Source of the DNA: Halorubrum ezzemoulense DSM 17463
Lineage (GTDB): Archaea; Halobacteriota; Halobacteria; Halobacteriales; Haloferacaceae
NCBI RefSeq assembly: GCF_002114285.1
Contig: NZ_NEDJ01000015.1
Coordinates: forward strand, 1 to 56,496
Direction: 5' to 3'
DNA length: 56,496 nt
Below, one piece after another: positions 38,565 to 41,320 of this stretch. The position numbers and the translations under genes are program-made. The number at the start of each line of letters is the position of its first letter. The stretch's first letter is position 1. The notes beneath the pieces were generated by a model. It worked only from the letters and a program-made list of their open reading frames with translations, did not search any database and was not told where the DNA came from.

Positions 38565-38579
38565 GTTGTCCTGCGCCAA
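38565..38579. promoter_or_regulatory. Shared palindrome TTGTC-N4-GCCAA, site 3
   Basis: On the plus strand GTTGTCCTGCGCCAA lies 37 bases ahead of the ATG of the 59-residue membrane protein. With site 2 it forms an inverted pair in the divergent cydA promoter region. Confidence 0.65.
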
Positions 38580-38616
38580 GCCATCGTCTTGGGTGGCGAG
38601 GCGACTGCGTTCACGC

Positions 38617-38796
38617 ATGGAAACACGGCACGCCGTGCTGGCGCTCGTCGCGCTCGTCACGGTGGTGATGACCGTCAGAGCGGTCGTCGCCGGCCTCGAC
38701 GGCGACTTCGGGACGGTCGGCCGGCAGGTCGGGGTCGGCGGGATCGTCCTCGCGTTCGGCGTGGCGCTGTACCGGAACTGGGAGTCGGTCGGCTGA
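38617..38796 (+). CDS. Very small two-TM membrane protein divergent from cydA
   Basis: This 59-residue protein has two hydrophobic helices (about 6-25 and 38-52) joined by a polar loop with AGLDGDFGTVGRQ. It has its own copy of the shared palindrome upstream and no obvious strong TATA box. Position and shared site tie it to the cytochrome bd genes. Family not recognised. Confidence 0.6.
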   Translation: METRHAVLALVALVTVVMTVRAVVAGLDGDFGTVGRQVGVGGIVLAFGVALYRNWESVG

Positions 38797-38900: not shown

Positions 38901-39119
38901 TCAGGACTCGCTCGCGGGGTCGTCCCCGGAGGAGTCCTGGTCGCGACGGGGCTCGCCTGCGAGTCGCTCCGCGAGCCGTCGGCGGAGTCGCTCGAAGGGC
39001 GACGAACACGCGCCGCACTCGGCGCAGGAGACGCCCGAACATGACGCGGGCGCGCCGCAGCGCGGACACGAGAGCCCGTTCGCCGGATCGAACTCGTACT
39101 CGCAGCGGGGACAGATCAC
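38901..39119 (-). CDS. Zinc-ribbon protein coupled to feoB
   Basis: This 72-residue protein starts at a GTG that overlaps the feoB stop (GTGA). It carries CPRC at residues 3-6, CPRC at about 18-21, then CSGVSCAECGAC, giving eight or nine cysteines for one or two zinc or iron knuckles. A basic helix FERLRRRLAERLAGEP and an acidic tail follow. In bacteria the third Feo gene is often feoC, a small Fe-S winged helix. This protein has that genomic position but another fold, so it may be an iron-sensing partner of FeoB. Confidence 0.7.
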   Translation of the reverse strand: MICPRCEYEFDPANGLSCPRCGAPASCSGVSCAECGACSSPFERLRRRLAERLAGEPRRDQDSSGDDPASES

Positions 39120-41017
39120 GCGATCACCTCCAAGGCGGCCGCGACGCCGCCGCCGACGGCGAACGCCGTGACCCAAGAGCCGACCCACACGAGGAGCGCG
39201 CTCCGCGCGTCGCGCTCCCTGAGGATCATCGCCATCGTGAGGATACACGGGACGAACAGGGTGACGACGACCAGTCCGACGAAGGTCTGTGACGCCGACA
39301 GCGTCAGGCCCGTCATCCCTGCGGCGGCGAAGTCGCGGCGGATCAGTCCCAACACGAGCACCTCGCCGAACGACGCGGGTAAGCCCAGCGCCGCGGTCAG
39401 CGGCCGGAGCGCGCCGACTATCGCGTCGAGCGCGCCGAGGTACTCGAGCGTCGACACCGCCGCCGCGGTGACCCCGAACACCGGGGCCGCCTCCCCGAGG
39501 AACGCGGCGGTCCGGTTCGCCGTCTTCCGGGCGACGTTCGTCGGGCGGGGGAGGCGTAGCCGCGGGAGCTGCTCGATCAGCGCGTCCTGTCGGCCGGGGA
39601 GCGTCCGGTCGAGAACGACGCCGGCGGCCCCGAGGACCCCGAGTAGCACCGCCACGTAGCCGCCCCACCAGACCACCCCGAGTTCCGCGAGCAACCCCGC
39701 GACGACGCCGATCTGCGCCGAGCAGGGGATCGCGAGGCCCAGCAGCGCCGTCGTGATGAGCCGCTCCCGGCGCGACCCGACCATTCGGGTGGAGACGACC
39801 GCCATCGTCACGCATCCCACGCCGACGATCAGCGGGACGACCGCGCGGCCGTTGAGCCCGATCCTGTCGAGCCCTCTGTCCGTCACCACGGCGAGTCGCG
39901 GCAGGACGCCGGCGTCTTCGAGCGTCCCGATCACGAGGTAGAACGCGACCACGAGCGGGAGCAGGACCCCGAGGGTGTACCGAACGGTGACCGTCAGCAG
40001 CCCTAGGTTATCGTTGACGAGCAGGAACTCGACGGGCGCGGCCCACCCGCGCGCCGGGAGCAGATCCGCGACGGTCGCCTCGACCGCCGGCGTGTAGTAT
40101 CGCCCGAAGACCACGGTCTCCGCGTAGCCGACGACGCGCTGCGCGACGAGCACCCCCATGACGTAGAACACCGCGAGGAGGAGCGCGAGCGCGATCGGGA
40201 TCCCCGTCACCGGCCGCAGCAACAGGTCTCCGAGCCGTCCCCCGCGACTCCGTCCGGGAGCGGGACCCCGTTCGACCGCCTCGACGACCGACCGGACGCG
40301 CGTCCGGCGCTCGCGATACACCGCCTCCCGCTCTCCGAGGCCGGCGGGCGGCGCGTCGCCCCCGTCGGCCGCGAGGCCGCCGGCACCGACGCGGCGAGCC
40401 GTCGGTTCGTCGCCCTCGACGAGGAGTGTCTTCTCCGCCCGCCCGGCCTCGATCCCGTCGGGGAGTGCGTCGTAGTACGCGTCGACGGGCGTCGACTCGG
40501 GGGCGGTCGCTTCCGGGAGCCGATCGCGCAACTCGTCGACGCCGGCGCCGGTGACGGCGACGGTCGGGACGACGGGGACGCCGAGGGTCGCCTCCAGCGC
40601 GCCGACGTCGATCTCGACGCCGTCGGCCTCGACCTCGTCCATCATGTTCAGCGCGACGACGGTCGGCACGCCCATGTCCAACAGCTGTAGCGTCACGAAC
40701 AGGTCACGGTCGAGCCGCGTGGCGTCGACGACGTTCACGACCGCGTCCGCCTCCAAGACGACCGCCCTCGTGGCCCGCTCCTCCTCAGAGAACGACGATA
40801 TCCCGTGGACCCCGGGCGTGTCGATCAGGCGGGTCGACCCGAGGGTCGCCGCGGTCGTTTCGACCGTGGTGCCGGGGTAGTTCGAGACGTCGGCGTACTC
40901 GGCCGTGAGCCGTCCGAACAGCACGCTCTTGCCCGCGTTGGGCGCGCCGACCAGCGCCGCGGACGCCTCGGCGTCGCCGGATGTGGGCCCGCGGTCCGCG
41001 TCCCCGCTCGCCGTCAT
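39116..41017 (-). CDS. feoB: Ferrous iron transporter FeoB
   Basis: This 633-residue Fe(II) importer has an N-terminal G domain: G1 GAPNAGKS (about 24-31), the SNYPGTTVE switch, G3 DTPGVHG, and NMMD as G4. A middle domain leads to the membrane part with two Gate segments: VPLIVGVGCVTMAVVSTRMV followed by LAIPCSAQIGVVAGLL, and near the end SQTFVGLVVVTLFVPCILTM. Both carry the conserved Cys of the pore. The ATG at 41017 overlaps the feoA stop (ATGA). Confidence 0.93.
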   Translation of the reverse strand: MTASGDADRGPTSGDAEASAALVGAPNAGKSVLFGRLTAEYADVSNYPGTTVETTAATLGSTRLIDTPGVHGISSFSEEERATRAVVLEADAVVNVVDATRLDRDLFVTLQLLDMGVPTVVALNMMDEVEADGVEIDVGALEATLGVPVVPTVAVTGAGVDELRDRLPEATAPESTPVDAYYDALPDGIEAGRAEKTLLVEGDEPTARRVGAGGLAADGGDAPPAGLGEREAVYRERRTRVRSVVEAVERGPAPGRSRGGRLGDLLLRPVTGIPIALALLLAVFYVMGVLVAQRVVGYAETVVFGRYYTPAVEATVADLLPARGWAAPVEFLLVNDNLGLLTVTVRYTLGVLLPLVVAFYLVIGTLEDAGVLPRLAVVTDRGLDRIGLNGRAVVPLIVGVGCVTMAVVSTRMVGSRRERLITTALLGLAIPCSAQIGVVAGLLAELGVVWWGGYVAVLLGVLGAAGVVLDRTLPGRQDALIEQLPRLRLPRPTNVARKTANRTAAFLGEAAPVFGVTAAAVSTLEYLGALDAIVGALRPLTAALGLPASFGEVLVLGLIRRDFAAAGMTGLTLSASQTFVGLVVVTLFVPCILTMAMILRERDARSALLVWVGSWVTAFAVGGGVAAALEVIA

Positions 41018-41256
41018 CGCGGTGCGTCGTCGGGGGCCGATCGCTCGACGGTTATCTCCCGGGCCAGCGACCGCCCGAGCGCCACCTCCGTCCCGCGACG
41101 CCTGACGACGACCGGACCGTTGCGGATCCGGCGGCGACACTCGACGCGGCCGTCCAGCAGGCCGAGTCGCAGTAACCGAGCGCGGCGCTCGCCGTCCGGC
41201 ACGTCGACCAGTTCCACCCACTCGCCCGACGGGATGTCGGCCAGCGCGACCACCAT
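41014..41256 (-). CDS. feoA: FeoA-domain protein
   Basis: This 80-residue SH3-like cytoplasmic partner of FeoB has DIPSGEWVELVDVPDGERRA, RLLRLGLLDGRVECRRRIRN and a final beta hairpin VVVRRRGTEVALGRSLAREI, the normal FeoA layout. It is the first gene of the feoA-feoB-zinc-ribbon operon. Its ATG abuts an iron-box-like palindrome. Confidence 0.9.
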   Translation of the reverse strand: MVVALADIPSGEWVELVDVPDGERRARLLRLGLLDGRVECRRRIRNGPVVVRRRGTEVALGRSLAREITVERSAPDDAPR

Positions 41257-41271
41257 TTAGGCCTACCTAAA
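41256..41271. promoter_or_regulatory. DtxR/IdeR-type iron-box palindrome in the feo leader
   Basis: TTTAGG-CCTA-CCTAAA is an inverted repeat directly ahead of the feoA ATG. It resembles the TTAGG...CCTAA sites bound by DtxR/IdeR/SirR repressors, which control iron uptake in haloarchaea. It lies downstream of the TATA box at 41311-41320, so a bound repressor would stand at or just after the transcription start. This predicts feo shut-off under iron excess. Confidence 0.75.
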
Positions 41272-41310
41272 ACGACGGGCGTGTTGTGCGGCACGGCACA
41301 TTATGGAGTC

Positions 41311-41320
41311 TTATATAAAC
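41311..41320 (-). promoter_or_regulatory. TATA box of the feo operon
   Basis: On the minus strand GTTTATATAA is a near-ideal archaeal TATA element, 55-65 bases ahead of feoA, giving a leader of about 30-35 bases that contains the iron-box palindrome. Confidence 0.7.

Follow-up and report, generated by a model that had tools for sequence, protein, structure and literature searches.

Which protein occupies the third position of the Feo operon of Halorubrum ezzemoulense DSM 17463, where enterobacteria encode FeoC, and what could it do for the iron transporter FeoB? The operon lies on the minus strand of the window, the 56,496-nucleotide stretch of contig NZ_NEDJ01000015.1 that was analysed. It consists of feoA (41014–41256; 80 residues; PF04023, E=5.2e-11), feoB (39116–41017; 633 residues) and a gene with a GTG start (38901–39119) that codes for a cysteine-rich protein of 72 residues, hereafter the ribbon. 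FeoB carries the FeoB_N and Gate domains, scores 336.7 bits with TIGR00437 (cut-off 315.65 bits) and belongs in the FeoB tree to the clade termed here class I, while classes II and III are the other FeoB clades examined. The overlaps, read directly in the sequence, are ATGA between feoA and feoB and GTGA between feoB and the ribbon gene, as the preliminary description of this DNA had proposed together with the gene order. A Shine-Dalgarno-like GGAGGTGA (39124–39131, minus strand) is found within the end of feoB, 4 nt ahead of the ribbon GTG. The Feo operon, its operator and the obligate partnership of FeoB with the ribbon are well supported. The reading favoured here, to which we assign a probability of roughly one half, is built on analogy: the ribbon may be a dedicated accessory subunit of class-I FeoB, an analogue of FeoC whose metal or Fe-S centre senses iron or oxygen.

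The operon is preceded by an iron-box operator, TTAGGTAGGCCTAA (41257–41270, unstranded), which follows the pattern TTAGGNNNNCCTAA and touches the feoA ATG. About 40 nt upstream of the box lies a TATA-box-like element of the feo promoter, TTTATATAAG (41310–41319, minus strand), which has a counterpart at the equivalent place in six loci of the same genus (L013–L018). The operator had been claimed from the window alone and is borne out by two counts: its pattern occurs at 13 sites in the genome of DSM 17463 versus 0 for the reversed control, and a box is present at the feoA start in 25/25 class-I operons (16 without mismatch, 9 with one). A version of the pattern with a five-base spacer, TTAGGNNNNNCCTAA, has no match in the window; the four-base spacer is correct. 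Among eight genes tested beside other boxes, two code for uptake-system binding proteins, one codes for the permease of a transporter and five have no clear link to iron. The genome has three DtxR-family matches above cut-off, and haloarchaeal iron genes are reported to be regulated by Idr-type DtxR proteins (PMC11349517). With its operator and the DtxR-family matches the operon has both features of a DtxR/IdeR-type iron regulon, a box at the promoter or start and a regulator of that family encoded in the genome, and by comparison with such systems a DtxR/Idr-type regulator would bind the feo box.

The association of the ribbon gene with feoB was followed through genomes of the genus, family and order. 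Class-I FeoB is present in six of 52 genomes of the genus (74–100% identity) and the same six have a strong ribbon match (E<=5.5e-19); a weak match in another genome (G036, E=2e-4) was dropped, this genome having no class-I FeoB and an incomplete cysteine pattern. Three further class-I FeoB proteins (63–75%), each followed by a ribbon, were found among 170 genomes of the family. In the search of the order, FeoB matches at E<=1e-60 come from 24 of 392 genomes, class I being present in 22 (61–100%) and only a distant FeoB in G269 and G462. A profile built from 25 ribbons finds 22 strong matches in the same 392 genomes (E 2.9e-28 to 1.4e-20). Class-I FeoB and ribbon thus occur in identical sets of 22 genomes, with the two genes adjacent in 22/22, which is the outcome of the search of haloarchaeal genomes suggested in the preliminary description. 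Note that all 22 ribbon genomes contributed rows to the profile and that their recovery is by construction; the co-occurrence is informative because FeoB was found without the ribbon, all 22 genomes had the ribbon and the other 370 have no comparable match. The ribbon gene is not widespread without feoB: outside class-I operons no match in the 392 genomes is better than E=4.6e-5, and 177 genomes whose matches are all weak (E 4.6e-5 to 0.01), being partial alignments at sites without class-I FeoB, were left uncounted.

The 25 class-I operons (those of the 22 genomes of the order plus G019, G030 and G151 from the genus and family searches) come from 25 genomes, and feoA, feoB, ribbon and box are present in all of them, which are related and do not represent 25 independent events. 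The chance coincidence of two such sets of 22 genomes is ~10^-36 in a calculation that ignores relatedness. Class-I FeoB forms one clade (support 91/99), as does class II (97/85), in a tree where the meeting of some long branches leaves the deeper order unsure. The distances between FeoB proteins and between ribbons agree (Mantel r=0.79, P=0.0002), an agreement that may partly reflect species descent. Whether the gene would be missing behind feoB of relatives depends on the clade: it is present in 25/25 class-I operons and was found after none of the class-II or class-III feoB genes examined. The ribbon is also missing behind feoB in L118–L121, which come from archaea of a different family in the phylum; the gene in its place resembles, as we read it, a DtxR regulator carrying a FeoA domain. 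This FeoB is absent at E<=1e-60 from plasmid records, and a contig scan gave at least three loci, a figure that is no census. In locus L018 (G021:C1 2289459–2291353) class-I feoB lies in two overlapping frames split at about residue 220, by a frameshift, a sequencing error or a true split. A third, distant FeoB-like clade (L020 in G038, L021, L022, L060 and L061), after whose gene no ribbon was seen, includes in L020 a GTPase and a channel encoded by separate overlapping ORFs. A search of open-licence papers found no report of the ribbon gene beside feoB, an absence that is weak evidence.

The ribbon has exactly eight cysteines, where eight or nine had been announced, arranged in two groups of four. 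The first group, C3-x2-C6-x11-C18-x2-C21 (39057–39113, minus strand), resembles the knuckles of rubredoxins and zinc ribbons and has cysteines that are invariant in 25/25 sequences; the second, C27-x4-C32-x2-C35-x2-C38 (39006–39041, minus strand), is FeoC-loop-like by hhalign and keeps its spacing in 25/25. The complete pattern C-x2-C-x11/12-C-x2-C-x5-C-x4-C-x2-C-x2-C is kept in 25/25 ribbons, the spacer of the first group being x11 in 22/25 and x12 in three, and P4, P19, R20 and G22 are invariant together with the eight cysteines. The gene is under purifying selection, with a pN/pS of 0.11–0.44 against five congeners (first 54 codons). The sequence has no hydrophobic stretch or membrane segment. 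Its AlphaFold2 model (mean pLDDT 65.1) consists of an amino-terminal knuckle and one longer helix; pLDDT is 82–84 over residues 1–20, and confidence is limited to roughly the first 30 residues, beyond which the model is poor. Family HMM scans gave no match over cut-off, and the Foldseek search with the model, which had no significant match, and the PDB profile search returned only weak or unrelated zinc-finger hits.

Strict linkage to FeoB, iron-box control of the operon and eight invariant cysteines would also suit a protein of the cytosol that accepts or chaperones Fe(II) from the FeoB pore and delivers it further, with cysteines that serve as carrier sites and not as a sensor. This role is unlikely, as the two fixed sets of four cysteines suggest stable binding of a metal or cluster and not an exchange site, and as the sister system described below has FeoC in that position. 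In a further role the ribbon would bind nucleic acid and, as a zinc-ribbon protein, regulate the feo operon or its mRNA; it would then be cotranscribed with feoB without being a subunit of FeoB. Many small zinc-finger proteins are reported in haloarchaea (PMC6562870) and the weak zinc-ribbon profile hits fit such a protein, but the iron box and the three DtxR-family matches already explain regulation. The basic helix that the preliminary description had listed is weakly supported: the helix that AlphaFold2 places at residues 41–54 has a pLDDT of ~50–60, and the 25 relatives do not conserve the basic character of helix and tail. Regulation by the ribbon is the most improbable of the roles considered here.

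The knuckle CPxCxYxFDPxxGLxCPRCG of the first group is similar to those of rubredoxin and rubrerythrin. It matches 1spw at 0.015, and the matches to family models are all below curated cut-offs (NF033497, 0.0068 for the ribbon of L081; Rubredoxin PF00301, E=0.4, 11.2 bits, cut-off 23). The ribbon differs from rubredoxins and zinc ribbons in that only x11–12 separates its cysteine pairs and in that its second cysteine group has no counterpart in them. Haloferax micro-proteins such as HVO_2753 are presumably comparable in being small haloarchaeal proteins with CPxCG-type motifs, but just 1/5 ribbons has a trace match to these zinc fingers (that of L081: PF07754, 0.99; NF041909, 0.29). The name “zinc ribbon” given in the preliminary description suits the first four cysteines, which judging by their pattern could equally form a rubredoxin-type iron site, and does not suit the second four. 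To our knowledge C-x4-C-x2-C-x2-C is not a usual zinc-ribbon spacing, and it resembles the FeoC loop; both points count against a ribbon that is purely structural, a double zinc-ribbon subunit with a part in stabilising or assembling FeoB and none in sensing. The FeoC of Vibrio must act in such a way: it has no cysteines and is nevertheless needed according to PMC8749426. Weak matches of the ribbon to zinc-ribbon and double-zinc-ribbon profiles (DZR, 0.00099 for L081, under cut-off) point the same way, yet a structural role has, like iron carriage, a low probability.

The sensing subunit favoured here draws on the comparison with FeoC (PF09012) of Gammaproteobacteria. FeoC is characterised by an oxygen-sensitive [4Fe-4S] cluster and by binding to NFeoB. 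Like it, the ribbon is small, has no membrane segment, is encoded by the third gene after feoAB on the same strand in 25/25 class-I operons and has a four-cysteine group, its second, which begins C-x4-C-x2-C. It differs by the additional amino-terminal four-cysteine knuckle, by the last cysteine spacing, which is x2 in the ribbon and x5 in FeoC, and by the absence of a winged helix from its AlphaFold2 model, which is of low confidence after residue 30. The FeoC HMM has no hit at E<=1 to the five ribbons searched; partners of class-II FeoB reach 28.8 bits. With neither a winged helix nor an HMM match the ribbon does not qualify as FeoC by fold or HMM, and what stands of the earlier proposal is a replacement that fills the FeoC slot as the obligate companion of one FeoB clade and whose second cysteine group has the spacing with which the FeoC cluster loop begins. 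Alignment by hhalign matches the second cysteine group to the FeoC loop across a gap of 3 residues (P=0.0032, or P=0.0092 when ten FeoC rows are used), and permutation of the non-cysteine columns gives P=0.0135. This is suggestive of a weak similarity between the two loops that extends beyond the cysteines, with homology unproven; because both loops are cysteine-rich, the likeness could come from convergence or composition. The motif of Escherichia coli FeoC, 56-CX4CX2CX5C-70, is reported to be needed for full function, and the C61S/C64S double mutant to behave approximately as a deletion of FeoC (PMC8749426). The FeoB-associated Cys-rich peptide (PF12669) is likewise a small cysteine-rich product encoded just downstream of feoB, with the motif Cx3-5Cx2-3Cx6-8C (PMC8749426). 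Firmicutes and Bacteroidetes encode it as a membrane peptide, whereas the ribbon lacks a hydrophobic segment, and PF12669 has no match to the ribbons at E<=1.

FeoC itself is associated with a subclade of class II, the sister clade. Downstream of feoB in 5/9 class-II loci (L122, L123, L124, L125 and L126) is a gene for a small FeoC-family protein with the loop C-x4-C-x2-C-x5-C. In a PF09012 scan that covered the partners of L122, L124, L125 and L126, and not that of L123, two pass the cut-off of 21 bits (28.8 and 22.9 bits) and the other two miss it narrowly (20.4 and 19.9 bits). A profile of 13 FeoC-like proteins matches the four solved FeoC sequences, 1xn7, 4awx, 7wqu and 2k02, at ~4e-4, and the two alignments to FeoC shown put the cysteine loops together. 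The model of the class-II protein has the order HHH-E-loop-E-H and predicts a winged helix whose wing carries the loop, the latter with low confidence; in a Foldseek search with this model, winged-helix regulators match best, with none reaching E<=0.001. The 13 copies of FeoC-like genes are distributed among 11/392 genomes of the order, and 10/13 have class-II FeoB within 1.5 kb. Six of the 11 genomes (G000, which is that of DSM 17463, G267, G391, G304, G336 and G338) also carry class-I FeoB with the ribbon, and in G336 and G338 both systems are present, each FeoB with its own partner; the choice of partner therefore follows the FeoB clade. In the stretches scanned, the class-II loci of G055, G056, G269 and G462 have neither a ribbon nor, among ORFs of 60–200 residues, a FeoC loop, and thus not every FeoB has one of these partners. 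Archaeal FeoC as such is not new, because a study already in print places FeoC mainly in Gammaproteobacteria and at a few percent in Euryarchaeota (PMC8749426). A 152-residue membrane protein is encoded between class-II feoB and the FeoC-like gene in L019 (G008) and L126, with comparable frames behind class-II feoB in L057 and L058; this protein may represent an additional component of Feo that awaits study.

If the ribbon is an accessory subunit of class-I FeoB, its first four cysteines would form a rubredoxin/zinc-ribbon knuckle holding Zn or Fe and the second four a centre labile to oxygen or iron, for which an Fe-S cluster like that of FeoC is most likely. At low iron an Idr/DtxR-type repressor would leave the operator and the three proteins would be made together. 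The ribbon would bind the cytosolic side of FeoB, which would be active and stable while the centre is intact and would be switched off or degraded when the centre is lost. For FeoC, a review describes that oxygen damages the cluster and that the ensuing loss of FeoC leads to degradation of FeoB (PMC10710835). This model is carried over to the ribbon by analogy only, and we infer the metal content of the ribbon, its binding to FeoB, the sensing and the direction of control. A more specific version, which is tentative and clearly less probable than the general one, is that the ribbon is a domain-swapped FeoC in which the cluster loop has moved from the winged helix onto a rubredoxin-type knuckle; the loop and not the fold would act on FeoB, and the FeoB clades would choose their partner strictly.

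The operon has a regular genomic surrounding. In the six class-I genomes of the genus, within the stretches covered, five have cydA downstream of the operon and five have lonB upstream of it. In G008, which has class-II FeoB with FeoC, cydA-orf76-trxB-lonB are contiguous with no feo gene between them, and all three genes of the operon are therefore absent together at that site. Beside cydA lies a conserved ORF of 76 codons (window positions 38566–38796, plus strand), matched in 12/52 genomes of the genus, that is present even where feo is absent. The genome of DSM 17463 also has an orphan FeoC-like gene (G000:C119, L142 1498–1782, plus strand) preceded by a remnant of the membrane protein that accompanies class-II FeoB. 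No class-II feoB was found in this genome, and the orphan gene with the remnant looks like a decayed second Feo system.

What is new at this locus is the kind of partner in a known slot; the transport system itself is not. The function of FeoC is still debated, and a study of Feo evolution calls it unclear whether kinship or convergence links FeoC, FeoB-associated Cys-rich peptides and the Cys-rich tails of FeoB (PMC8749426). Haloarchaea have FeoB clades with two unrelated small partners, at times in one cell, which allows their side-by-side comparison, and the pair of ribbon and FeoC bears on whether the common cysteine loop is the working part. If the ribbon were a domain-swapped FeoC, it would represent another class of FeoB-sensing subunit and have two metal centres, of which one would possibly pass electrons or iron. 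A nameless family of small archaeal proteins gains with this association a firm functional setting.
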